Shown here: positions 17,890 through 59,744 of the stretch, one piece after another
Layout of the letters: each line of letters begins with the position of its first letter
Numbering within the stretch: position 1 is the stretch's first letter
Source of the DNA: Artemia franciscana
Lineage: Eukaryota; Arthropoda; Branchiopoda; Anostraca; Artemiidae
DNA length: 64,000 nucleotides
Direction: 5' to 3'
Assembly: GCF_032884065.1 (NCBI RefSeq)
Contig: NC_088880.1
Location: forward strand, 34,846,008 to 34,910,007
The notes under the pieces: generated by a model
Seen by the model: the letters and a program-made list of their open reading frames with translations, nothing else
What the model was told of the DNA's origin: nothing
The model's database searches: none
Made by a program: the position numbers and the translations under genes

Positions 17890-18079
17890 CTTCTTGATCT
17901 TTTCCTTCTCTCGCGATCTCTGCTTCTGGACCGTCGACGCTCATCTCTGTCTCTTCCTCCTGCTTCCCTTCCACCCCGTTCTCTTTCATACCTTTCACGT
18001 TCTCTCTCGTTATCTTCTCGTCCAGAATGTTTAATGTTGACATCTACTCCACCCCGACGAGTTCCTCCAAGTCCACCCC
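17890..18079 (-). CDS. SNRNP70: U1-70K exon: Gly-rich linker and first RE/RD-rich block
   Basis: A 190-nt exon (2 nt, 62 codons, 2 nt). It reads [20 protein letters not shown], then [20 protein letters not shown], then an [20 protein letters not shown] tract. The [11 protein letters not shown] linker is a hallmark of U1-70K. The following Arg/Glu and Arg/Asp/Ser dipeptides are the low-complexity region used for contacts with SR proteins and regulated by SR-protein kinases. The acceptor is tttcttttag and the donor is AAG|gtaatt. Codon choice within the repeats mixes CGA, AGA and CGT, so this is protein-level rather than DNA-level repetition. Confidence 0.97.
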
Positions 18080-30310: not shown

Positions 30311-30412
30311 CTAATCGCCTTGGCAACCATCCTTTTACTGTTCTGGCCCTCTCTACATCCACCAGTACTCTTCTTCCATCGATTTTCTTTCCGTCAGCAT
30401 GTTTATAGGCGG
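30311..30412 (-). CDS. SNRNP70: U1-70K exon: end of RRM ([20 protein letters not shown])
   Basis: A 102-nt exon entered in phase 1 and left in phase 1. With the split Ser codon from the previous exon it reads [21 protein letters not shown], then [14 protein letters not shown]. These are the last helix and strand of the RRM and the start of the conserved linker that contacts U1 snRNA and U1C. The acceptor atgatttag has a T-rich tract upstream; the donor is TTAG|gtattt, a weak match to consensus. WLPRR, rather than the human WRPRR, is an arthropod-like residue choice from memory. No frame damage or stop is present. Confidence 0.98.
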
Positions 30413-33258
30413 CTAAATCATAAAAAAAAACAAATGAAATAAATAGTCCTGAATAAGAAAGATAAAAAAAAACAAATGTCTTCCATCAATTTGCATTTCT
30501 ATTACAGAAATTATGGAGACTATTTTCGGTGGAGTTACTTATACTACATATTTTATTATGGAATGAAGGACTCTAGACGGGGCATGAAATTAGAATTCTA
30601 GGGAAATGAACTACGCACAAGAAACTGCTATGAATAAAGATTTAATCATCAAAATGAAATAGCAACAAAAAGCTGATGTTTTTAAGAGTTATGACGAAAA
30701 ATCAAACAAAGCTCCGTCGCCAAACACATCCCCCACAAAAACAAGTTTATAACAATTTTACTTTTAAGTTATTATATGTAGAATATTCGCACCCTGAAAA
30801 ATGTAAATAAAAAAGAAGACGTCTTAAAGATTTTGAAGCCGTTGTATACTAATACTACAGGTTTCATAACTATATTTAACTAAAGACTTCTTTTAGGGAA
30901 TGCGATATGATTTAGGAGTACCAATCAGTCAGTGATTGACAATAGGTCAGATGTGGTTAAATATGGATTAGCTCCAGTAGCAGAAGTAAATAAAAATGTA
31001 ATATGACCAACATAGCTAAGCTGCTATCCAGGAGGGAGGCCAAGATTTTTCTTTCTCTTTTTACACCACCATTTTAAAATAAACTTGTCAATTTGGTCAA
31101 TTTTTGGCACCCTTTCCACATTGCCCCCCGCCCCCTAGATTGTAATCTAGATCCACCTTTGCTGGTATGACTCACTTATCAGAATTTTCACACTTATTCC
31201 GTTAAAAAGTGAAACATGGTGTATTTTCGTTTCATCTGCACAATAGTATTGTACATTAAAAAAAAGAAAAAAGAAGTATTAAAACGAGTCGATTTGCAGT
31301 GGGTCATATCGCTTTGTACCTCGGAAAATTAGAAATGTAACCACAATACTGTCCCGTTAATTAGCAAACAACAAGTTATGAACCTTCAAAATTTAATTGG
31401 TAGGGGGGCTCTAAACCCTGCCACTAGAAATTTACCCACGTTATCCGCAAGTAAAAACCAAAAATAAGATATCACAAACAAAACTTTCAATAGTTCCAAT
31501 ATAATCAAACGTTAGATCTAAAAAAAGGAAAAACACAGTTAAAAGTTCCTTAGGAACATCGTTTCCAAGCTAGAAATAAGAACCGCATCAAAAGGTAGCC
31601 AATGGGGATCATTACTCCATAGGGCAAATGTGGGATTTTCCAGTGAATAACCAGAAAACACTGCGGAAAAATTTCCAGCGACTTGAAAAATCAATTTAAC
31701 TGCTCTGTGAACAAAAAGGAAGAAATGCAATAAGTTTTGCTTTACGTCTTAGAAACTCAAAGGCTACAATTTGCACATTTTGAGAACTAAGAAGGGAAGC
31801 AAATAAGAAGTAATAATCAATTTTTGGGCGTGAGATTACTACATTATTTTTTAAATACTACACAACAAATGAATGGAACCAAAATCATTACCCAAGTCAA
31901 ACGAACCTCCATAAACGGCAACGCCAATCAAAGTCATTTACAGGAAATTTAGTCACATGAAACCATCTAACTTGACCTAACCAATATTTCAAGCATTACT
32001 AATAAAAGCATTTTTAATCTTCAGATTTTTAGCCGAGGTTGTCACATACTGTACGGTCGAATTTTCCGTTTGTTTAGCTCTTAGGTAGTAAGTAGTACTA
32101 GAGACCTGTATGTCTTCTGATGCAAAGTTCTACTAAAGCTGAATAGAAAAAAAGATCCCATTCCTATTTCGGACCAAAAGTCGCATCCACTGACGTGACA
32201 ACCTGAATTTGACAACTAAGAAGCTAACGTGACAACTAAGACAGTCAGGTCCTTTCACAGGAGTGTCAGCTTAAATCATGACCCAAAATTGGTTATTAGA
32301 TACACTATGAAAAAATTATGGTCATAAATACTTAATAAGACCAGGTCTTAAGTACTAAATGAAGTACAAGTACTTCGCGTCTAGATTTAGAGATTATGAT
32401 CTCTCCAGAAATTTCCGTTTTTAAAGCTACTATAGGCGTCAAAATTTGAGCAAGCCTGATTCATCTTGATCGCTGAAAGATAGTAGCAAGACTAAAGCTC
32501 GTGGGAGGAAGAAAGAATCTTAAATTTAACGAGTTATAAAACGGCAACCACACTAAATACGTAAGCTTCTATACTAAGTGGTAAGTTGCGTTACATTAAA
32601 TATAACCGCTCACATTTAGATTTTCACTTGAAGTCCTTTCACACTGACCAACATAAATCATTACAAGAAAACTAATCAAAAATTTGGAATGCAGATAGAG
32701 CTTAAAGCTCTGATGACAAATGAAAGATTATCTAAAAAAAAAGTTTGCTAACTTATGCTGACTCTGTTGACTAACTTTTGACTATTCAATAATTTAGCAT
32801 AAGCTTACATAACGTAATATTCTATGTAAAGCAAGAGTTTTCTTGGTGTAGCCTACGCTATGGAAAAAAATTACTCAGTAACATTACATAAAGTAACTGT
32901 AAAATCTTCAGATATGCTAGCATGAAAGTTTCTACATGTAGATATGTTCAGATATGTAGCATGAAAGCACCATCATACTTAAACTAGTATATAGCCTTTA
33001 TCTATAGTATATAGTATATATTATTATATTATAGTATATAGTATATTATATTATTATTAGTATATTATTATATTATTAGTATATAGTATATAGCTTTTAG
33101 TATATTAGCCTTTATACGGTATAGCCTTTATCTTATATTTAATAGGCTCGATATAGCCTTTAATGTATATTTTCGTATTATATAAAAGATGCTTGTCATT
33201 TTTTTCATACTAATAGTTTCTTTATATAGTTTATCTTAATATAGAAAGTGGAAAGCAA

Positions 33259-33259
<1 letters not shown>

Positions 33260-33353
<94 letters not shown>

Positions 33354-33373
33354 CATATATATATATATATATA
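33260..33373. repeat. (AT)n microsatellite
   Basis: About 110 bp of nearly pure AT dinucleotide, interrupted by 'ttac' near 33351. The flank 32990-33110 is built of 'tatagtatat' words. Confidence 0.95.
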
Positions 33374-33548
33374 GAAATTTTATGTAGAAAGCAGTATACC
33401 TTTCATATACTATAAAACATTCATAACATTATATCTACACATATTAATAATGTCTAAAAGTGGAATATACCCCTTTTATGAATAAATAAGCCATACAACC
33501 CTTCAACATAATGGAAACATAGCCGAATAAGACGTAACCAGACAAGAC

Positions 33549-33582
33549 GTTTGTTGCAGTCATACATGTGACTGCAACAAAC
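33549..33582. other. Hairpin with perfect 14-bp stem
   Basis: GTTTGTTGCAGTCA pairs with TGACTGCAACAAAC around the 6-nt loop tacatg. No associated gene; possibly the remnant of a small inverted-repeat element. Confidence 0.6.
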
Positions 33583-33675
33583 AAACGTTCTCACTAAAAT
33601 GCTCATGACTTAAAATCCTGAATTCCGCTTTAAGGAGGAATTTCCATCCTCAATATCTAATAGAGAACCCAAACT

Positions 33676-33735
33676 TGTTTCAAGAAATACTTGAAATTAC
33701 TAACATGTTTCAAGAAATACTTGAAATTACTAACA
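33676..33735. repeat. 30-bp unit duplicated in tandem
   Basis: Two exact copies of a 30-bp unit containing the imperfectly palindromic TTTCAAG-aaata-CTTGAAA. Confidence 0.85.
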
Positions 33736-33844
33736 TGTGTCAGTTAAATAGGTACGATTGAAGACTTCATGAAAATAAAGACTACCAAAAGCAAGGCTTA
33801 TTGACATTCGTTTCTTTTGCTAAGCAAGGGATTATGCTGATGCT

Positions 33845-34265
33845 GAATTGGAATTAGAAAGAAGCCAGATCAATCAAGCTGTGGCGGTATCACTAGACCG
33901 ACTGTCACTAGATGGCCTTTGCGACGTAGAGTCGATCATTATAATGGCTAACGTCAAGCCAACGGCCAATAGATGATACTTGCGATGCTAAGTCAACACA
34001 GGATTAACTTCATGTCTTCTCTGTTCTTTTTCAAAAGGAAACAGGAGTATAGCAGAATTGAATTTGGTTTATAAAGAGCAAAAGAAGCTAGATAACGTAA
34101 GCTGCAGCCATATTACCAAACCGACGGTCACTAGAATGTCGTTTGCGAATCTGAGTCAATAGGAGTTACGTCTCAAATCCTCCATTTTTCTGGAAACTAA
34201 GGACAGGAGCATAGCAACACTACACTGGGGTTAAAAAGGCTCAAAGAAGCAACATTAATGAAGAT
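33845..34265. repeat. Two diverged ~200-bp tandem units
   Basis: 'agaagccagatcaatcaagctg...accgactgtcactagatgg' (from about 33850) and 'agaagctagataacgtaagctg...accgacggtcactagaatg' (from about 34083) align over their length, including 'aggagtatagca'/'aggagcatagca' near their ends. Confidence 0.6.
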
Positions 34266-34917
34266 ACGGCGTCAACCTTTAACAAATAGTCGGGGAGTTT
34301 TAATTCTTCCATATTCCCTATAGGTTTTTAGATAGACCGACATGATAATCCGTCTTATAGTTCTATCCTGACCAAGGTCACATCCAAGATTTTTGTTTTG
34401 AGGGGGGGGGGCGGATACAATAAAACTTTAAGCGCTGCTGGCTCATTTGAAGACAGTGCTGACATTTGACAACTCACCTATATGCTATCGCTTTATTTCG
34501 CTTGCAAACAATTAAACTGAAGTTTCACACGATAATTCAGACAGGCTAAACTATGAATAGGTTGCTTCTCTTCCTCTGTAAACAATTTATTAGACCACAC
34601 TGCCTTTCTATTTACGAATAAATCGAAATAAAAATATAGAAAACGGGAATAACATTTCAAACAAGACAGTGGAAAAAAAAACTTTTTTCACTATTAATAA
34701 TTTAAGTTCGAAAATTTCGGCTTATCACCGAGGATAAAAATTCGTTTGGCTATTCAAATTCATTTTGCTGCATTTCATTATCCAACCTACTGTGCCACTG
34801 TTGTTGCTTTGTGGCATTATAACATACTCGTGAGTCAAACGAATCAATTTAATTTTGCCTTTTTTGTTGCTATTGCACTGTGAATATTATTAAGATTTGA
34901 ATTTTTTGGGTATAAGC

Positions 34918-35412
34918 CCAGGGTTCCAGTAGCACATAAGGAAACGTGTTAAGAAAACAATTCGTATTGCACAGTATGCAGAATAATCCTATTTAACATA
35001 TGTTGCAGTGTGAGAATCTTTATCTTAATTTCTTTCATTGTTGTATAATTCTTCTAAACAAAAATTCTGAAAATTAAACATAGATTCGACTGCATTTGTC
35101 CGTTTTCAAATAATCTATATATGTGACAAAACACCATCAATGCCTTCTAATTGTTTCTCACAAAAGCATATCAATAGACAAATATTGATAGATTAGGTAG
35201 TCAGTTTAGATGGCGTTTATTTCTAAACGCTTTTCAAGACTTGGACAATAAACACAAATATTTAGAAATGTGATAGAAAAACTGGAAATACAAGGAAAGA
35301 AGTGAAGATAAAGGTCTTCTCCCTGCAAAATATGTTAACTAGGATTATTCTGCATATTACGAAGTAAGAATTGTTTTCTTAACACGTTTCCTTGTGTACT
35401 GCTGGAACTTCA
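34918..35412. repeat. Inverted-repeat element with ~85-bp arms
   Basis: 'cccagggttccagtagcaca' to 'cagaataatcctatttaaca' (34918-35005) recurs inverted at about 35332-35412. The spacer is about 330 bp. Just outside both arms lie inverted copies of a 'gataag-ccgaaat' motif (34715-34735 minus; 35439-35469 plus), so the full inverted structure may span about 34700-35500. Confidence 0.65.
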
Positions 35413-37880
35413 GACTTGTACCTTTTTTTTTGTTCCCGCTGATAAAGGCTTCCGGCCGTGAAGCCGAAATATATTGACTTTTATTGGCATTCATAAAAAA
35501 AGAATTTCTTGTTATTTTCAGTGCCTTATTTGAAATATCATATCCGTCATTTTATATTTTCATTTCGTTTTATTCCTCTTTCTCCGCTCTAAAATATAAC
35601 CAATTAAAATTAATTTATCTGAACTTAAAACCAAAGAGAAAAAGAGAGACTATTTTCATATAGTGATATGTTAAAAAGTAAGCTATAACTTCACTGGTTT
35701 ACGCCTATAGTACCTTTTTAAGCCAATCACATTATTCCTTGAGCATACGTAAAAAAAGAAAGCCAATTAACCCCCATCATTTCAAACCTGATTGTTTCTC
35801 CACTGTGAAATTTCAAGCCAGTAGAAATTAAGAAACATTTTTTAGTTATACAAACCTTTACAAGTAGCCCCTTTGTTGTTTTGAGTTGAAAGATTTTAGT
35901 TCCATCAATTTTGTAGATAATAGGATCCATCCAATTGTAGCAATTTATTTTAGAGTATTGCTTGAAAGAATTTTTCTATTTCCTCCTGCATTTAGCATAA
36001 TTTCCAGGAGGAGTTCAAGGGTAACTTTTCAATGGTAAGTTCAAGGGTAAGATTATTTTTACGCAATCAACTTTTCGTAAATCACCCAATGAGCCAAAAC
36101 ATCGAAATTCGTTAAAAGGTTCAAAGAAGAGGATCTTATGTTCAAAAATTCACGTCGTTTTTTGAAAGAAGAACTGCTATAGATTGCACATTCTTTTCTT
36201 TGTATTTATTTTTATTTTTATTAAGTTAGAAACAAAGAAAAGCTTCGAAAGAAGTTAATACTGAAAATATTACGCGATACTGCTAAGTAATATATTTTGA
36301 GACAATCTACTTCAATCATCCCCACTGAGAAAAAAAAACAAAAAAACTAGGCCGTACGTATACTTTCATGCACTTATCGGAATGTTGTCACTCTGTGCCC
36401 CCCCTCAAACAAACCAGCCATCTTGGAAGGCAGTGAAAGCCATATTTTCCAACCGCTTTTTAGAAGTGCGAAAAAGATATATTTAGCACAAAAAAATTCA
36501 CCTTGGGGAGAAACCTTAATAAAAGTGTAAAATTGACTGAAAATCGACACGCATCCAAAAGAAATCTTAACGCTTTTTTTAGGGCTATGTCCAAAGGTAG
36601 TTTTTTTCTTTATTTGGCACTGAGGACGACTTGGCAGAGTCTGGCTGAAATGTATTCTTTATTTTCGTAATTCATTGGTTAAAAAAATATATTGGTTACT
36701 CCCTTTTCCTTTTTTGATTTCATATATTTTGTTCTCCGTCTTTTTGTAGGCCATGTACATCCAGTGTGGTCTCAGAACCTATTTCTGAGACCACTTTCCA
36801 GAAAAACCCCTAGTTTCCAAAATAATTCAGCACCTCAGAGATTTACAGACATAAATACAATGTTCAATTAAGCTTATTTCCAACAAAATGTGTCTCTAGA
36901 TGTGCACATATTTGAAAAAACAAACAAAAAAAACTAGTACAGGTCAGGACATTTTGTCATGAGTAGCTTGGGGAGGGGAAAACAGGTCTTCGATATGGAA
37001 CGGTTTTCGCTTCAAGGAAAACCTTGATTTCAACAAATTGAGAGACCTTAAAATTTGAACGACTCGGCTTTTTTTTTTTTTACTTTTGAAAGGTACTTAG
37101 CTGTGAGTAGGTATGTCACAAAAATGAAGTAAGCAAATAGACGAGGTGGCAAAAAAAGAAAGTTGTGAAAAAAGCAATTTTCAAATCCGCAGACATTTTT
37201 ACTAATTCAGTTTTTCGGTCCTTAAAATTTTTCTTTATCCAAAGCTCATATTTTTAAGCTTCGATGTATCGATATGACAAAGCCTCAATATTCACTTAAC
37301 AATCATACCAAAAATATCGATCACCGAATGAATATACGTAAAAACATTACTCTTGGAGTGACCCCCCCCCCCCCAAAAAAAAACAAACAAAACACCAGAC
37401 CTTTTCATTGTTTTCTAAAATATCATTTTTGAGACAAAACAAGTCTTTTTTGAAAGCAAAACATCAAGTCTTTTTAATATTTAAGTCAGATTCTAGATCA
37501 TTCAGATTCTGCATAAATCCCCTTTCGTATAAAGATCTACAAATTATCTCCAAAGAGAACACTTGTGTACTAACAATAACTGCCGCACGAGGCTCGGATC
37601 GGTTTCCAGCAAGAGCAAGACAAAGGAACAGTCTAACCATATTTTTTATGAAAGTTCCAGAAAAGAACGATCTTGGAACAAATTCAAGAAATAGTGTCAA
37701 TGAATACAAAAAGGCTAAATAAAGTAAGAAAGAAGCACGGATGAACCTAGGGATCAGGTCAAATTTTAGAATGAACCTAGGGATCAGGTCCATATCGACA
37801 AATTTTTCAAGAAGCGCAGGTTTTTTCGGCACCCACATGTGTTTCAAAAATGAGAATTTCAAAAAAGGGCACAATAGCAC

Positions 37881-37881
37881 A

Positions 37882-37928
<47 letters not shown>

Positions 37929-37929
37929 A
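37881..37929. repeat. (TA)n-(CA)n-(TA)n compound microsatellite
   Basis: atatatatata, then cacacacacacacacacaca, then tatatatatata over about 49 bp. It creates the YIYIYVCVCVCVCVYIYI string in a long but unsupported minus-strand frame. Confidence 0.95.
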
Positions 37930-38451
37930 ACTGTGAGGAAATGGCGTAATTTCCGCCACCCAGAGGATGCTCCCTTCCTGGGTACGGAATGGGTTCTTGC
38001 TGGGTACTGGGTTCTTGCTGAGTAGCCTATACAAGTTATTAGTAAACATGGACTAAAAATTGGATTGTTTGCCAGCAAATCAACAAAAGTGTTATTTGAC
38101 ATCCTCATAATGAGGTTATAACCTAGTTTGAAGGAAAATTCTGTTTTTTTGTTCACATTTAAGATATTATTTCACTAATTAGTACCAAATTTGCCAAAAT
38201 TCTGACCAATTTTTAAGAATCCCAAATAAACAATCTAACTCCCCCACTTCTGCAATCCCATTAGAAATAATTGCAAAGCCGGATGTTTTACACAAATATG
38301 AGGTTATCAAATACTTGCTTTACTGGTAATTTTTTTTAAAGTCGAATCAGTAAACCAAGTTCTCAGAATTGAAATTAGTTATCTTACTAGTAAAATCAAC
38401 TCCCCGTCAAATATTAATAATTTTCCTTACAAACCTAAACATTAGTTGTGA

Positions 38452-39927
38452 CTTACCAAGTCCAGCTTCTATTTCACATGAAATTTGAAACTCAGCAGAA
38501 TACAACCTTAGCACCTAAATTTTTACTTTTTTCAATGTCTTACCGTTTCCGATTTCCTATCATTTTTTAATATAAAATTCTTCAAAGCCAAAATATGCTT
38601 ACGACAACCATTTTTATGAATATTTCCTCTTTTTTCCCTTTTTATTTCAGTTCTTACAACTTAAGTCGTATCCAAATCATTTCTTTGAACTCAATCCTCA
38701 ATCAGTAAAATGCCCTATAATAGTAGTTTGTCATTTTATCTTTCTCGTTTACAAGCAAATAGTTTTATTTTTCAGGATTATCTTTAATTTTTATCTAGAA
38801 CTCTTAGTCTTCAAATGTATTTTTATCTTACCACTTCCGAATTCCCTTCGGCTTAGAATATCAGATTACACCTAGCCAAAATAACATTCTGAAACTAGTT
38901 CATCTTACCTATTTCCTATAAATTTTTATTGGTCGATATTAACTTTTAAGGGATTATGTTAAAGCCCAAGAATTATTTACACCTTACCATTTCCGAGTAC
39001 TTTTTTTTGTATAGAGATCTTGCATTCTACTCAAAGAAAATATATCCGTGACAGTAATTTACCTTTTCACTTCCTTTATCCATTTTTAATATTACGTTTT
39101 TCAAGCTTGCAGTCCTCAAACTATTTTATCTTACCATTCACAGGTTCCTCTTGGATTACAATTCAAATCATATTCAATAAAACTATGTTTTTGAAAATAA
39201 TTTACCTTACCATTTCCCGTATTTCATTCTTTAATATTTACCATTAAAAAAATTAGCAGAACTATTCCAACCTTACCATTTTTCCAGTTCCTTTTGCATT
39301 AAAATCCCAAATCCTACTAATAAAAAAAAATTTGAAATTGATATACCTTATCGTTCCATTTACTTCATTTTTTAATAATTACCCTTACAAATTTATTGTT
39401 ACCTTACCATTTACCAGTTCCTTTTGGGTTGCAGTCCCAAATACTATTTAACAAAACTAAGCTTTTAAAAATTACTCAGCTTACCATTTCCCGTGTTTTA
39501 TTTCTTAATATTCACCATTATGAAATTTAACAAGCTTACATTTCCCAAATTACTGTTACCTTATCATCTTCGATTTCTTTTCGGATTACAGTCTCAAATC
39601 CTATTCAATTAAAATTCGCATCTAAAAATAATCTTACCACTTCTTTTCTTTGATTTTTTTTAATGTTTACCTTTAAAAATTTTAAAAGCTTACAATCTTA
39701 TAAATACTGTTCTCTTACCATTCCCGGTTCCTTCGAAATAACCATTCAACAGCTCTTACCGTTTCAAGACACGAATCAAGAGACCCCCCCCAGAAATATA
39801 GAACCCAAAACCTTACCAACTTGACTCCAGACTTACCATTAATTTGGAAAAATCAAGTTATCTCAATACTTACGTGAATTAATTTAAATCAAAAAAGAAA
39901 AAAAAAAATACTTACATAAATACTTAC
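38452..39927 (-). repeat. Degenerate ~75-bp tandem array of 5' splice-site-like sequences (GGTAAG x15, GTAAGTAT x3)
   Basis: On the transcribed (minus) strand GGTAAG occurs at plus positions 38452, 38539, 38827, 38904, 38983, 39130, 39206, 39272, 39403, 39480, 39633, 39714, 39755, 39812 and 39832. One-base variants fall in the same rhythm at 39058 (GGTAAA), 39347 and 39560 (GATAAG). From 38827 to 39714 the spacing is mostly 66-81 bp, with one gap of 56. Alternate units share longer sequence: one type has cttaccatttcccgt plus a T-rich stretch, the other cttaccatttccagttcc followed by a ggattacagtccc-like part. It is therefore an old ~150-bp dimeric minisatellite whose flanks have diverged while the GGTAAG core is kept. 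The array is followed by three GTAAGTAT octamers at 39866, 39908 and 39920. I saw no GGTAAG on the other strand within the array. Confidence 0.75.
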
Positions 39928-40241
39928 TTAAGAATTAGTCCCAAATAACCCACCCAATTTTAAGCAAAGCAATAATTATAGTTAAATCAATCTTCTGATT
40001 TGTTTAGTAAACAAAAATAAAAATAAGGAATCAACTTATTAGAAAAAACATAGAATGGAACTTCTTTAAGAGCTGGTAAGCAAATAGTTAGTTTTTATTT
40101 TTCATATATGCTACCCCCATCCAAGGAAAAGTGCCGAATGAGTATACATTTTCAAAACTTATATCCAGTCCTTTCCCCTCTTAGATCAAATCCTGACTGT
40201 TCACATTAAGTTTCTAAGTACCAACTGTCTCCTCAAAGTCT

Positions 40242-40268
40242 AAAAAAAAAAAAAAAAAAAAAAAAAAA
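40242..40268. repeat. Poly(A) tract, 27 bp
   Basis: A run of 27 A; a second A-rich stretch follows at 40326-40356. Confidence 0.9.
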
Positions 40269-40535
40269 CACAAGAAGCTTAAAACATCCTAGTAGTCTAA
40301 ATTGATATAACGTACTTTTCTGGACAAAAAAAAAAAAAACCAAAAAAAAAAAAACCGATTCCTCAAAACAGTGAATTTCTGAGAGTGTAAGAATCAAGTA
40401 GGAGTTTTCCAAGCTGACCTTATTATACCATATTAATTGTATTTTAGTTTTACACATATTTCTATCACGTAAAACTCACTCTTCATTATTTTTTATTCAC
40501 AATTTTGACTTCATTTACATTTTCAGCTATCGTTT

Positions 40536-40810
40536 TTTTACGGTTTAAAGGTTTTATTTGCATGCTAGAAAAATATAAATGAAGTCAAAAGCGTTACAAA
40601 AAAAAGTAAATAGGTTCAAAATTCCTATGGTAACTAGGAATATAAGTAATATACATTTGGAAAAATAAAGTATAATCAAAGGTTCTTAAAAATTAAATTT
40701 ATTTGTTATAACAAAAGCAAGTAACTAATAAGTGTTTTACGAGCTATACCAAACTGTTCCCTCATTTGCTTGTTCTTTTACGGTTTAAAGGTTTTATTTG
40801 CATGCTAGAA
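40536..40810 (+). repeat. 35-bp perfect direct repeat at 240-bp spacing
   Basis: 40536-40570 and 40776-40810 are identical (ttttacggtttaaaggtttt, then atttgcatgctagaa). Each contains ATTTGCAT, the POU/octamer word. The intervening sequence is not repeated. Confidence 0.8.
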
Positions 40811-42387
40811 TATAATGAAAAACACACACGACCAAAGGAGCCATTTTGAGTAAACAATGTTATATACTAACGATATTAAATGGATAAAAATCACTATACG
40901 GTGTTAATCAAGATTTCCAAACTTCAGAAAAGGGCAAATATGTGATATTAAATGTTTTTTTTTTCCAAATGTCGATTACATTATGTCAAATACCGAAGAG
41001 AAAAACATTAAGAAAGAATAAAAAACGAACGCCTTAGTCTTCATGGTCAAAGGGGCTTTTGGGGTCGAAAAGGGTCATTCCAAAGACAGTGACCTAATGG
41101 TCAATTCACCTTACATATACACAGAGTCGAATACCTGCTAAAAGCAACATTGTTAGACTATAAAGGCACTTTGCGGTTTCAGACCACCCCCTTTTTTTCA
41201 CTAAAAAAATTGATATCCATAGGATCTAGGATATGTGTTGTTTTTTTTTTTTTACATAAAATATAATATGAAAATTTATACTCATGGCATTCATCCTTAG
41301 TAGGGCAGCATATAGATGCAAAATCCGCCGAAAAATTGTCCAACAAGATTCGAACCCGCATCATACAGATTTGTTGTGCCACATTTTTACATTTATTACC
41401 TTTTTTGCACGGATTATTTTTATAATAAATTACAATAATTTTTGTTATTTAAGCCCACGTTTTATTAATCATGTATGTCGGTATCTTACCACAACATACA
41501 AACCTAAGTTTTGGGGGGGATGTCACGAATGAACGAAGAACATCGTGCCAAATTATCCTTCAATGACCGGAAATATAAACAAAAAATTAATATATAGAAG
41601 TGAAATATATACATATAAATACAGTCTAATCATTGGTACGATATTTTAGAAAAAGTATTACACATGTTTTATATAATATTTTACCACACAAGAGCATTTA
41701 CTTGTAAAATTTTCCCATGCTGCTTCTTTTGGGTATTAGCGTTAACCTAATTTTATACTATTTTCGACCATTCAAAAAAAAAAAAAAAAAAATTTTCACT
41801 TTTACCTTAATATTACGGATTGTAACCCTAGCAACTTATTATTATGTAGAAAATACTCTCCCGTATTCTTTTATCAGTCAGACTTCTTATACTTTTATTT
41901 CTCCTTACTCCTTAATTTTATTGATTTTCTTCCCTTTGTATAATTAATAAGTCATATATAATTGTCCTGATCGCTTTTATTTAAGAAACAAACCATAAGA
42001 AAAATATGGATGAAAAAAAAAACAACAACAACTATCAAGCCTTTAAATTGGCATTAAATAAAACAAAAGCCTACTAAATCAGGTTTAATGAGCCCCTTGT
42101 ATATTCAGATAGTATTCATGTAATTCTAAATTATTCTTTTTATGAATAATTAAAAATAAAAAGATTAATAATTAGATTCCTAGCATTCACCGATTTGATA
42201 ACCAAAGATTCTAGAAATTCCATTTTCATCTATATATTCACTATAAATAAGACGAATAATATCACAGTAAACATGCCTTGCAACTTTACGGGTTACTACA
42301 AATTATAACCACTGAAATTGAAAATACTACAACTAGACAGAGAGACAAGAGACACGGATAGAGAAAATGAGAGGAGAGAGAGTGAAA

Positions 42388-42393
<6 letters not shown>

Positions 42394-42464
<71 letters not shown>
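42394..42464. repeat. (AG)n microsatellite
   Basis: About 70 bp of pure AG in a wider purine-rich tract (42361-42540). The opposite-strand frames are Ser/Leu repeats and not genes. Confidence 0.95.
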
Positions 42465-42467
<3 letters not shown>

Positions 42468-43281
42468 GAACAGAGGGGAGAGAAAGGCTGATAGAGGCAG
42501 AAAGAGGGAGGGAGAGAGAAGAAGGGGGACAGAGGGAAAGAAATGGAGAAATAGAGTGAAAAAATCGAATAAATGTACCGACATGATTCAACATTACACA
42601 CATAAGCGGATCATTACACCCTAACCGGATGCTATTCATTGCAGAAGACAAGATTAACCTTAGATTAATCTATACAATCTTTAATCTTCTGTAATCTTTT
42701 AACACTGAACCACACAAAAGACAAAGAAAATATTTGCGAAATTTTATGAACTCGTGCTGAAATATGCCTGTATAAAGGGTCGTGAGGGGGAATGGAGCTA
42801 AAGAAAGGGTTCTCTCATAATATCTAACGGGAAATCCACCGACCACATGAAAATTTGGATCTCTCGGTATAAGATTCACTTTTCTCACGTGATAAATGAG
42901 CTATAAATGAATATTTTTTTTTTTTTGCATCCTAGGAAGAAAAAGAAATTCATTTCAGTGCATAATGTAAACGATTGAACAAAAAGTTTAAGATGTCTGG
43001 ATCTCCCTCTTCCATAAAAGATCATGAAACTACACATTTAACCCTTCACTCACACAGGTAGGGGTGTAGACGATACTTCTCCCTAGGAATATTGGGGTTA
43101 AGAAAGGAGCTATAAATGCAAAAAAAAAATATAAAAAAAAATCCTAAAATAAAACAAGGAAAAACCTTTTCATTAAGCCACCGATTCCCCACAAAAATAA
43201 ATCGGTCCCTACCCTAGAGGGTATTGGACAGCGTGGAAATATGAATTACATGATCAAAGCCCATACTGATAAAACACTTAC

Positions 43282-43363
43282 AATGCATATCCCTTTCATG
43301 CTCATACTCAATGAAAGCGTATCCTCGTGGCTTTCCAATGTTTTTGTCATGAATCAGGACAAT
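43282..43363 (-). CDS. SNRNP70: U1-70K exon: RRM core with RNP1 octamer
   Basis: An 82-nt exon of 27 codons plus one base (phase 1 out). The peptide runs [20 protein letters not shown], then EHERDMH. It contains the RNP1 octamer RGYAFIEY, whose aromatic residues stack on RNA bases in the RRM fold. The tract [15 protein letters not shown] is nearly invariant in U1-70K proteins from animals and plants. IVLIHDKN resembles arthropod U1-70K more than the vertebrate IHMVYSKR. The acceptor is tttatttacag and the donor is CATT|gtaagtg, the strongest donor in the window. The array of 5' splice-site-like sequences lies about 3.4-4.8 kb downstream in the intron that starts here. Confidence 0.98.
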
Positions 43364-43929: not shown

Positions 43930-45840
43930 TATACGCCTGCGCAATCCCTTGATCACTTGATGGATCTTCGACTAATTTGGTCAAAGAAATATTCCCAGTT
44001 ATATCACCGGTTTTATGCCACATAATTAATCTTACATTTGTAACTGATGTCTATCCTTCAACATTTAAATCAGCAAGAATTGTGGCCCTACATAAAGGTG
44101 ATGACTCGAGGCTTCCTGCCTAATTATCGTCCTATATCGATACTCTCTGCTTTTTCGAAGGTTGTAGAGCGAGCACTGTATAACAGAATCTATTCTTTTT
44201 TTTTGAGAAATTTGATTACATTTCTAAACTTCAGTTTGGATTTAGAAACGAGCATTGCACTGATCATCCTATGGCTATTATTGTCCAACATATTAGTGAT
44301 TGTTTTGACCGTGGCTAAACGCCTGCAACTATATTTTTAGACCTACAGAAAGCTTTTGATTCCATTTCTCATGAAATTCTTTTGTATAAGCTTTCGAATG
44401 CTGGTATTTGTGGTAATTGCCTTAGGTTACTTGAATCGTATCTTCATGGGAGGCAGCATATACTTATAAATAATGATGTTAGATTTGATTCTTTACAGCA
44501 GTCAGATAAGGTTGGTGTTCCCCAGGGATCCGTATTAGGACCTCTGCTTTTCCTAGTTTACATTAACGATTTGTGCTCAGCTACTGAAGTTTCTTCTATA
44601 GACACTCAGTTTGCTGACGACACTGCAGCAACCGCTTCTGGTAAATCTCGTGATGAGCTAGTGGTCAATTTAACATCCACATACGATAGATTGTCTACTT
44701 GGCTCTCTGATAATAGACTACTTCTGAACAGAAAGAAGACGAAGTTTATTGTTTACAGCAGAACGGGTCACAAGTTTCCAGATATAGAATCAGTTTCCCT
44801 TTCTGCGAATGAACCTGAGTCTGTTATTGAAAGGGTTGTATCGATAAGATATTTGGGAGTTGTGTTTGATGAGAATTTGTCATGGAAAGAGCAAATTAAT
44901 CAGGTTAGAGCAAAAACTGCCCGTGGAGTTGGTATAATGTGCAGACTGAAAAACCTTCTTCCATATTGCGCTCTAAAATCCATTTACTTTTCCCTTGTGC
45001 AATCCCATTTTGATTATGCGTCTATTATTTTTTTGAACACTTTTAAAAGTAATGTTACCCCTTTACAGATTATCCAAAATAAAGCAGTTCGTATCCTTAA
45101 ACCTTTTCTGCCATCGCCATCAAACTTCCCCTTAAAATCCACAACAGAGACCCTTTTTTCACTTCATAATATTCTTCCTGTTCGGCAAAGTATCCAATTT
45201 TTAAGTGTTATGTTTAAGATTAAGCTTGAACGAGAAAAGCTCCCCAGATATTTTGCATCGATGGGTCTTATTTCTTCCCCTTCATCTTCACAAGTTGAAA
45301 CCCGTGGTAAATATAATCTGCGGACTCCTAAGGTAGTTACAGAGAGGTCGCGTTTTTGCCTGAGGTATTTGATTCCTCTACATTGGGAAAGATTGAAAAA
45401 TGAAATTGATTTTAATGTAAGCATAGATGCTATAAGACGGAAGTTGAAAAGAGTGCTGATTGAAAGTTATAAATCTAAATAATATGAAAAAGTGTTATTT
45501 TAAGGATGTTTATTATTTTTTTGAGTATTGGGTTGGTCTCCGGGGTTCGCCCATGAGGCCTCCAGATGTCTTATGACTCACTTGGTTTTAAGTTGTAATT
45601 TTAATTGTGTCTCAAAATGGTGCGAGGAGGATGGAAATGGTATCGTACGGCACGGGATTTGTTTTTTATTTATTTCTGCCAAGGTTGGTTAAGAAAACTA
45701 TTTATTTTTAATTTTTTTGCATATTTAGTGTTGTTTAAAGGTAGCTCAATTGCATTCGAGCTATACTCTCAGCCTTGAGTTACCTAATATTTTGTATATT
45801 TTGGTTATATTAAAAGAACCTTGAACCTTGTAAGCATGGA
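43930..45840 (+). mobile_element. 5'-truncated non-LTR retrotransposon (LINE), RT domain, broken
   Basis: Reverse-transcriptase homology starts near 43935 (SSTNLVKEIFPVISPVLCHI). It continues through ARIVALHKGDD, then NYRPISILSAFSKVVERA in another frame, then FLDLQKAFDSISH (motif A) and PQGSVLGPLLFLVYIND with the catalytic FADD (motif C) in the 366-codon frame 44382-45482. Two frameshifts (near 44110 and 44220) and a stop (near 44315) break the N-terminal half. No endonuclease domain is present. The 3' tail ends in a short repeat (gaaccttgaaccttg) at about 45840, as in CR1/Jockey-group LINEs with repeat tails. It is antisense to SNRNP70, within its intron, and about 570 bp from the RNP1 exon. 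Confidence 0.9.
44382..45482 (+). pseudogene. LINE reverse transcriptase, C-terminal 366 codons
   Basis: Longest open frame in the window, lying inside the LINE. It carries the PQGS motif, the FADD active site at about residue 77, NRKKTKFIVYS, the YLGVVFDENLSWKEQI thumb-proximal motif and a long C-terminal tail ending in a natural TAA. The enzyme primes cDNA synthesis at nicked target DNA. The catalytic motif A (DLQKAFD) lies upstream of the ATG in the same frame but after a stop, so the element is dead as it stands. The long undamaged 3' part indicates a fairly young insertion. Confidence 0.85.
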
Positions 45841-50296: not shown

Positions 50297-52506
50297 TTGC
50301 GAGAGCAACACTTTGGTTTTGTCCCGTTTTTTTTTTCTATGCCGCCGATCTCAGCTTATTCCTGGAAACTGGTAAGGGTCTAAACTGTGCAGTTTTTACG
50401 GAAAGTGTGGACCTCGGGCCGGATTGATGAATATGACATTACATTTTGGAAAGCTCCGTAGAACTCTTGCCTGGGGCCAAAAAGGATGGTCTTTGCTTGT
50501 CCTCGAGCCAGAGCCTATGGTGTGCGAAGTGAAGTGGAGTTGTATAGCCTATGTCAGAAAGGAGTATCTGAAGTTGTGCAGCCAAGCTTTTGTTTCATCA
50601 AATCATGTTTCTGCTTTCGAGTAGAAAGCTCCGTTCTAGCAGGCAGGCACCAATTTCAAATTGAAGATGGACTAAAGTCTAAAAGTGTTAAATATATGCA
50701 GCAGTTCTCCGGTCCCACAGCCAATATATCTTCTTTGAGTGATAAATAGAAAAATTTACAGAAACAAAAAAGTGCGATTTTCCCACGGGTCCGAAAGTGC
50801 TGCCATCTATTGTTTCTGCCCATTTCTGTTCGTGATTTCAGCTGACTTTACCATTCTTTTTTTCTACTTGGGATTGCAATAGAGAAATGGTATCAGATAT
50901 GCTTCTTAAACGTTAAAAGTTCTCTCATTGCTAATGAAATTAGAGCTTATCCTTTGCTCATTTTTAAGTGGTGGTGTTAGCAAGTTGGCCTCCGGCAAAA
51001 AAGTCAACTTTTGAACTAAGACAGATATAATTTTTTTTTCAACGGCAATCGATAGACCTTAATGAGCTGATCAAAGTATATATAATCCATTTTTTAATAC
51101 AAAAATTCCTTCATGAAATACATCAGTTTGAAAGTTTCAAGGGGTTGACAACTTCAGTGGTAAGGTACACACTGAAACCAAAAATAGGCCGATACCAATT
51201 GTGAGATATGTAGGGGACTTTCAAGCAACAGCCGACTATTAGCTTATAATCATCTTTGGCAATGAGGGGTTTGCAACTTTTGCTGATTGGTGTACCTATT
51301 ATCTGTTTCTGGTGTAAATGATGGTAAGAACAACTTGGTTCCCGATTGTAAGACATGTAGGGGAGTTGTAAGTAATAATCAGCTGTTACACTACAATGAT
51401 CTTCAGCGAAGAGGGGTTTGCAACTTTTGCTAGTTGGTGTACCCATTATTTGTTTCCGGTAAATTTGATGAATATCACGGGAGAGGGACTTGTAAGTAAG
51501 AATCGTTTGCTAGAGGAGGCTCATGAAGGGCTACAAATTTGTGCAAGTTGGTACACATCTATGGTCTTTTGATCCTGAAAAGTTAGAGATAGCTTTATAA
51601 TACCAAGATTATATAAGATAATGTTCCAAGTTTCCATCGGTTACGATGTCTACGATTGAAAAGGATAAAGTTCAACCGGCTGCAAAGTGACATTTAGGGG
51701 CCTAGTAAGTAATAATCGGCTGTTAGGCTACAATTCTCTTCAACAATGAGGGGTTTGTGACTTTTGCCTGTTGGTGTATCCGTTTATTTGCTTCCGGTTG
51801 AACCTGATGTCTATCACGGAAGAGGGACTTGTAAGTAAGAGTCGGTTCACTTTAGGCTAGAAAATTGTGGAAATTGGTGCACATTGTATTCGATCCCTGT
51901 AAATCTACCAGTTTGAAAGTTTCAAGGGGTTGACAACTTCAGTGGTAAGGTACACACTTAAACCATAAATAGGCCGATACCAATTGTGAGATATGTAGGG
52001 GAGTTGTAAGTAATAATCAGCTGTTACGCTACAATGATCTTCAGCGACGAGGGGTTTGCAACTTTTGCTAGTTGGTGTACCCATTATTTGTTTCCGGTAA
52101 ACTAGATGTATATCACGGGAGAGGGACTTGTAAGTAAGAATCGGTTGCTAGAGGAGGCTCATGAAGGGCTACGAATTTGTGCAAATTGGTACACATCTAC
52201 TGTCTTTTGATCCTGAAAAGTTACAGATAGCTTTATAATACCAAGGTTATATAAGATATTGTTCCAAGTTTCCATCGGTCACGATGTCTACGATTGAAAA
52301 GGATAAAGTTCAACCGGCTGCAAAGTGACATTTAGGGGCCTAGTAAGTAATAATCGGCTGTTGTTTTTTCAACGCTGAAGAATTTGATCATGTCATTACT
52401 GATTGTGTTCTGCTTTGAATATGCCGCTTTGAATGCTTTGATAGTTTTGACAACTTCAGCATTTAACCGATAGCGAAGAAACAAAACCAAAGTGTTGCTC
52501 TCGCAA
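50297..52506. mobile_element. 2.2-kb element with perfect 26-bp terminal inverted repeats
   Basis: 50297-50322 and 52481-52506 are perfect 26-bp inverted repeats with core GCGAGAGCAACACTTTGG. The interior carries a ~785-bp direct repeat ('agtttgaaagtttcaagg' at 51125 and 51910). Within it are ~150-bp sub-repeats with 'gaggggtttgcaacttttgc' and 'agtaataatc.gctgtta'. No transposase frame is visible, so it would be a non-autonomous DNA transposon or foldback element. A further hairpin CGTTGCC-ca-GGCAACG lies just outside at 52551-52566. No clear target-site duplication is seen. Confidence 0.65.
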
Positions 52507-59681: not shown

Positions 59682-59744
59682 CTTTTTTATTGGTCCGTAA
59701 CCTTCGAACTCTCGTCTCAACTTGGTTTCAGACGTATCATAGTT
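59682..59744 (-). CDS. SNRNP70: U1-70K exon: RRM, residues after RNP2 (NYDTSETKLRREFEGYGPIKK)
   Basis: A 63-nt exon of 21 whole codons (phase 0 at both ends). The peptide starts NYDTSETKLRREFEGYGP and ends IKK. It corresponds to the first helix and second strand region of the U1-70K RRM; human has NYDTTESKLRREFEVYGP. The acceptor is tttcttttag, a good pyrimidine tract, and the donor is AAG|gtagtg, weaker than consensus. RNP2 (LFVARV in other animals) should sit at the end of the preceding exon, which is not visible in 59745-64000. The start is set by the acceptor and by the homology beginning exactly there. This is the rightmost exon that can be supported, and its weak donor precedes a 16.3-kb intron. 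Confidence 0.95.

Follow-up and report, generated by a model that had tools for sequence, protein, structure and literature searches.

Does the U1-70K pre-mRNA of Artemia franciscana carry a landing platform for U1 snRNP, the particle to which the 70K protein itself belongs? The question is raised by a 64-kb window (the whole stretch of DNA analysed, 64,000 nucleotides), in which 5′ splice-site-like motifs crowd onto one strand within a long U1-70K intron. The window spans C18:34846008-34910007 of the assembly. The initial annotation read this array as a possible U1 sink or sensor controlling U1-70K output, or as a U1 platform protecting the intron, with a neutral minisatellite as the main alternative. 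To our knowledge, vertebrates are the only group in which cryptic 5′ splice sites have been proven to mediate feedback on U1-70K. Searching the literature, we found no U1-site array in an invertebrate U1-70K gene among the titles and abstract openings covered. Weighing the evidence below, we put the probability that the array is a U1-binding, poison-exon negative feedback element in the U1-70K pre-mRNA at roughly 0.5.

A one-strand cluster of U1-complementary sites in a U1-70K intron

Performing tblastn with the human protein and reading the borders from splice sites, we located four U1-70K exons (A-D, comprising the RRM and the region after it) and found that the minus strand is the transcribed (sense) strand of the gene hosting the array (Table 1). 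The joined exons match RRM_1 (Pfam), and 1353 of 1888 candidates match at E 0.001. U1-70K was found once in the 1.27-Gb genome: the six matches are exons A-D and two distant ones (46% and 39% identical). The gene call and the placement of the array in a 12.9-kb intron, both made in the initial annotation, are thus borne out by tblastn, the exon borders and the B-C join. According to PMC8406910, the Artemia franciscana genome has a mean intron length of 3458 bp and a repeat share of 58%, so long repeat-filled introns are normal in this species. The window also holds a reverse transcriptase frame on the plus strand (44319-45482; RVT_1, Pfam). Three Artemia franciscana proteins match 32-53% of its length at 84-90% identity, and the ENA-contig protein P0123 matches 55% at 99% identity.

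Table 1 Features of the U1-70K locus, in window coordinates; scores are from weight matrices not trained on Artemia
Feature	Position	Strand	Remarks
U1-70K exon A	59682..59744	-	encodes NYDTSETKLRREFEGYGPIKK
U1-70K exon B	43282..43363	-	precedes the array-bearing intron; ends DMH(S)
Intron B-C (hosts array)	30413..43281	-	12.9 kb
Candidate alternative 3′ splice site	40320..40356; first exon base 40319	-	T-tract and CAG; score 10.18, rank 1 of 661
Candidate alternative 3′ splice site	40240..40268; first exon base 40239	-	T-tract and AG; score 9.63, rank 2 of 661
Predicted poison exon	39928..40239	-	312 nt, assuming the first GTAAGTAT as its end; eight codons precede the stop
5′ edge, six U1-complementary sites	39741..39940	-	without detectable similarity to the repeat units
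Three GTAAGTAT	39866-39873, 39908-39915, 39920-39927	-	just 5′ of the array
GGTAAG at the 5′ edge (among the 15)	39755, 39812, 39832 (low coordinates)	-	exact matches
GGTAAG array	38452..39837	- (U1-70K sense)	15 cores, 0 on plus
Recognisable tandem part	38780..39740	-	decayed dimer of ~131-157 bp; 13 half-units (6 A, 7 B)
U1-70K exon C	30311..30412	-	AYKHADGKK...PRRLG; starts AYKH
U1-70K exon D	17890..18079	-	intron C-D is the counterpart of the vertebrate element's place
RS-rich stretch of U1-70K, beyond exon D	~15956-15672	-	from the ORF list

The array had been described as 15 exact GGTAAG on the transcribed strand with none opposite, mostly at 66-81-bp spacing. Our recount returned the same 15 on minus and 0 on plus. 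Near-miss cores within the array (GATAAG twice, GGTAAA five times) all lie on minus, and so do all 24 GTAAG in 38400-39990. A first-order chain predicts only 0.3 GGTAAG in 1386 bp when built from the whole window and 0.7 when built from the region itself. Among hexamers permuted from the same letters in 38452-39940, GGTAAG occurs 15 times, the runner-up GTAAGG, which overlaps it, 6 times, and the mean is 0.8. Moreover, the cluster extends past its annotated limit, with three GTAAGTAT directly on the 5′ side, at 39866-39927. These counts confirm that a dense one-strand cluster of U1-complementary sites exists in the U1-70K intron. The spacing claim held in part. Six of the 14 steps between GGTAAG cores fall at 66-81 bp and eight at 57-87 bp, the others being 20, 41, 131, 147, 153 and 288 bp. 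The near-misses do keep time, as each of the 131-, 147- and 153-bp steps contains a half-unit with GATAAG or GGTAAA, but with just 6/14 steps in the annotated range, the rhythm is looser than "mostly" implied.

We compared these sites with the U1 snRNA of the organism itself. The genome contains 42 matches to U1 snRNA, and all six of the loci read begin ATACTTACCTG, so the GGTAAG and GTAAGTAT sites fit the organism's own U1 and the annotated match of GTAAG cores to U1 stands. The U1 matches lie on C1, C14, C16, C19, C20 and others, several of them in runs with ~4.85-kb steps on C16, C19 and part of C1. Counting sites with at least six contiguous U1-complementary bases, we find 23 in the array's 1.5 kb, against a maximum of 12 per 1.5 kb, reached in a satellite-rich locus, among 20 random 10-kb loci read on both strands. 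We scored donors and acceptors with weight matrices rather than with an Artemia-trained model. On the donor matrix, 16 minus-strand sites in 38440-39940 score at least 8, compared with 4.9, 5.3, 2.5 and 6.8 for the donors of exons A-D. Other 1.5-kb stretches of the window hold at most eight sense donor-like sites scoring at least 7. In predicted accessibility, the cores do not depart from the average (0.16, against 0.16 for all 6-mers and 0.12 for 6-mers of like G+C), and an Rfam scan of the 64-kb window returned nothing at gathering scores.

A decayed repeat and the U1 sites at its 5′ edge

The larger part of the array is a decayed tandem repeat. TRF missed it at default settings and listed it with softened scores, and the dimer was also recovered by self-BLAST, in which self-alignments reach lengths of 1 kb at 57-63%. 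Pairwise identity between dimer copies is 47-75%. Half-units of like kind have a similarity of 0.67 in the 50 nt before the core and 0.62-0.63 after it. Between A and B half-units, the flanks are 0.60 (before) and 0.59 (after) alike, compared with 0.58 (sd 0.05) for shuffles, while the cores are 0.93 alike, so the units have indeed diverged more than the cores, as initially noted. The cores of the 13 half-units read GGTAAG in 10, GATAAG in two and GGTAAA in one. The best-conserved eight-column block is the B half-unit core (mean 0.964), and the next block elsewhere reaches 0.911. We simulated neutral decay on a tree built without the core block (2000 runs per rate setting). The probability that the core is the maximum by chance was 0 with no rate variation, 0.001 with gamma 2, 0.03 with gamma 1 and 0.30 with gamma 0.5. 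Neutral drift is beaten provided that rate variation is mild; as strong variation reproduces the core, we regard its conservation as no more than suggestive.

These features fit a neutral decayed minisatellite, which we regard as a serious possibility if short of an even bet. A founder with one or two GGTAAG would have been duplicated in tandem, duplication on one strand would give the strand bias, the edges would be further decayed copies, and the place in U1-70K would be coincidental. The similarity of like half-units on both sides of the core and the kilobase-long self-alignments are what such a history would leave, and the simulation with strong rate variation accounts for the core. Strand purity is also not rare, since 5 of the 20 random 10-kb loci contain a strand-pure hexamer at least 12 times in 1386 bp, and another array of the window carries TCCTGA 16 times, strand-pure. 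One of the 20, a satellite, carries GGTAAG 24 times over its 10 kb, though never more than 8 times within 1.5 kb. Two random loci, L016 and L017, are large tandem satellites (113 bp filling all 10 kb; 128 bp and 295 bp). Within U1-70K itself, a GTAAGT-bearing tandem repeat lies on the plus strand, antisense to the gene (51120-52380), and serves as a natural control; it has ten U1-like GTAAG sites in 1.5 kb.

Genome-wide, GGTAAG triples spaced 56-86 bp apart number 549, below the 953 of the reversed control word. Among the matches listed (C1-C4, 258 Mb), there are at least seven arrays with at least three rows, of at least six sequences and in both orientations, besides a dispersed G-rich family and singles. 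Unrelated GGTAAG-bearing minisatellites are thus common in this genome. The initial annotation took the same minisatellite at many unrelated loci in both orientations as a sign against its proposal and had suggested a search elsewhere. At BLAST sensitivity, the array DNA occurs at one place in the 1.27-Gb genome, which speaks against a dispersed satellite of this sequence. A 17-base word of the array matched two viral contigs, and by our own estimate we take this as chance.

How surprising, then, is the coincidence with U1-70K? Extrapolating from the matches listed, we expect ~35 comparable arrays genome-wide, a figure that is probably low. By coordinates, the U1-70K array itself would yield just two rows of the triple pattern, so the count is too low for arrays of similar irregularity. 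By our own low estimate, the chance that one such array lies in sense orientation within the 64 kb of U1-70K covered is ~0.001, which weighs against the neutral minisatellite, and for all U1-related genes it is several times 0.001. Many other coincidences could equally have struck the reader behind the initial annotation.

The neutral minisatellite has difficulty with the 5′ edge. Comparing 39741-39990 with the tandem part, we found a likeness no higher than shuffling of the stretch would give (z -1.1 raw and -0.7 masked, with 100 shuffles each). The six edge sites have differing neighbours, and two of the GTAAGTAT, 12 bp apart, may stem from one duplication. This edge is the densest 190-bp patch of U1 sites, with six against a best of four outside the array in the window and the 20 random loci (528 strand-kb). 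Triples of GTAAGTAT at edge-like spacing gave 35 matches, grouped into 14 loci of the 1.27-Gb genome, one of which is here; many of the other loci look like simple repeats, and the control word gave 12 matches. The six edge sites, unexplained by unit homology, lend support to the U1-sensor idea.

Upstream acceptor-like sequences and a predicted poison exon

A poison exon would also need a 3′ splice site upstream of the array. Ranking all 661 sense-strand AGs in intron B-C by the acceptor matrix, we find the two best at 40319 and 40239, 392 and 312 nt upstream of the first GTAAGTAT. The acceptors of exons A-D score -0.52, 3.79, 3.85 and 7.55 on the same matrix. Joining exon B to 40319 brings a stop at once, and joining it to 40239 brings a stop after eight codons. 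Scores of at least 9.6 occur 16 times in 400 random strand-kb, so the chance of such an acceptor within 400 nt is ~0.02, with the two adjacent acceptors counted as one event. The T-tracts preceding 40239 and 40319 could be the tails of an antisense retroposon. The productive exon C acceptor, which scores 3.85, is outscored by another one 36 nt upstream of it (9.37; window 30412-30448, minus). Splicing there would join T to GA and give an immediate stop, offering a further potential unproductive route.

Two lines of evidence for the sensor, the U1 sites outside the repeat and the acceptors, are independent of the repeat and were absent from the original claim. From these features we infer U1 binding, acceptor use, decay and feedback. 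The array would be a landing platform for U1 snRNP on the pre-mRNA of its own 70K protein. Intact U1 snRNP would pair with the many GGTAAG and GTAAGTAT sites, and bound U1 would, through exon definition, activate the 3′ splice site at 40319 or 40239. Exon B would then be spliced to a poison exon that ends translation early, or the remaining intron would stay unspliced, and the resulting transcript would undergo nonsense-mediated decay or nuclear retention. When U1-70K or U1C is scarce, the platform would be empty, and exon B would join exon C to give protein.

Two other readings keep U1 on the array but give it a different task, and we hold both to be very improbable. In one, the array acts through decoy exons, whose strong U1-bound donors pair unproductively with the weak acceptors inside the units and with the flanking splice sites, causing intron retention with no need for the upstream acceptors. 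The array donors do outscore the gene's real donors on the donor matrix, and 5/7 B half-units but 0/6 A half-units carry a TAG 36-40 nt ahead of the core. As acceptors, however, these TAGs get scores of only -1.7 to 3.3 (-0.5 to 7.55 for the gene's own), and the TAG is absent from the best-conserved blocks of the array units. Tandem micro-exons from B half-units, with the TAG in five of seven, are likewise very improbable given the same weak acceptor scores.

The other is the intron-protection variant of the initial annotation, telescripting, in which U1 along the intron would block premature polyadenylation in a long AT-rich intron; it found no support, since, although polyadenylation-like words occur on the sense strand inside the array (AATAAA 5, ATTAAA 6), the intron shows no strand asymmetry in them (AATAAA 27 sense and 26 antisense; ATTAAA 16 and 14), no comparable density of sense sites occurs elsewhere in the window though other introns of the gene are equally long, and the reach of telescripting in Drosophila is reported as ~500 nt (PMC4889658), so that one 1.5-kb array would shield a small part of 12.9 kb.

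Relation to known feedback elements

The closest precedent for a U1-sensing poison exon is in the same gene of vertebrates. As described in PMC3798272, whose exon and intron numbers we follow, intron 7 of human U1-70K contains three cryptic 5′ splice sites that are bound by U1 and activate a 3′ splice site lying upstream. The resulting RNA carries a premature stop and is degraded, and U1C is required, likewise in mouse cells and zebrafish. In mouse, poison-exon RNA from Snrnp70 is targeted by decay and partly held in the nucleus (PMC5062968); the feedback loop is not the main driver of the event in smooth muscle cells, which counts against simple feedback.

The array shares with this exon 7a/U1C element the U1-70K gene, the sense strand of an intron and a cluster of U1-complementary 5′ splice sites. 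The upstream 3′ splice site and the early stop of the vertebrate element have predicted counterparts in Artemia. Several features differ. The vertebrate element has three sites, plus a fourth further down, and Artemia has 18 (15 GGTAAG and three GTAAGTAT), most of which, unlike the vertebrate ones, sit in a tandem repeat. For the vertebrate element, U1 binding, U1C dependence and decay are demonstrated (PMC3798272); for the Artemia array they are predictions.

The position differs as well. In the predicted vertebrate isoforms P0042 (Carlito) and P0043 (Thamnophis), divergence sets in right after RRLG, which places the vertebrate event, by inference from isoforms, at the counterpart of intron C-D. 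The array lies one intron earlier, in intron B-C, so the resemblance is one of gene and logic. Intron C-D contains no cluster, only 14 scattered donor-like sites scoring at least 7 on the donor matrix. The proteins P0044 (Leptidea) and P0041 (Elysia) terminate in RRLGEQI and RRLGK, the kind of end expected if translation ran past RRLG into the following intron up to a stop; this may be a sign that an event at intron C-D predates vertebrates, or it may reflect gene-model errors. We also considered U1C as a second target and rejected it, as the 10 kb read at this gene (C1:17853509-17861476) has no U1-site cluster but 10 scattered sense sites.

A second parallel is the USSE of U11-48K and U11/U12-65K. 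According to PMC5473595, its tandem U12-type donors are bound by the gene's own snRNP and switch on an upstream 3′ splice site, while the tandem sites are not themselves used in splicing. The array resembles it in having tandem 5′ splice sites and a candidate upstream 3′ splice site, with binding by the gene's own snRNP predicted here. The USSE, however, has U12-type sites for the U11 snRNP and is called ultraconserved (PMC5473595), and the sites of the array are of the GTAAG type and fit U1. With the other GGTAAG minisatellites of the genome, the array shares a tandem structure with at least one GGTAAG per unit; it differs from them in its single place, its strong decay and the extra U1 sites outside the recognisable units.

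In summary, the sink-or-sensor idea of the initial annotation is strengthened by the non-repeat U1 sites, the two best acceptors upstream and the vertebrate precedent (PMC3798272), and it stops short of proof. We tentatively suggest, as a conjecture more doubtful than the feedback element itself, that a crustacean U1 sensor arose independently of that of vertebrates, in another intron, with a minisatellite multiplying its sites to 18. If so, through the graded number of sites, U1-70K output would report directly on free U1 snRNP, and the high-copy crustacean version would be a natural element in which to measure the effect of site number. It would also suggest more than one evolutionary origin for titratable donor sites as a way for the spliceosome to measure itself.
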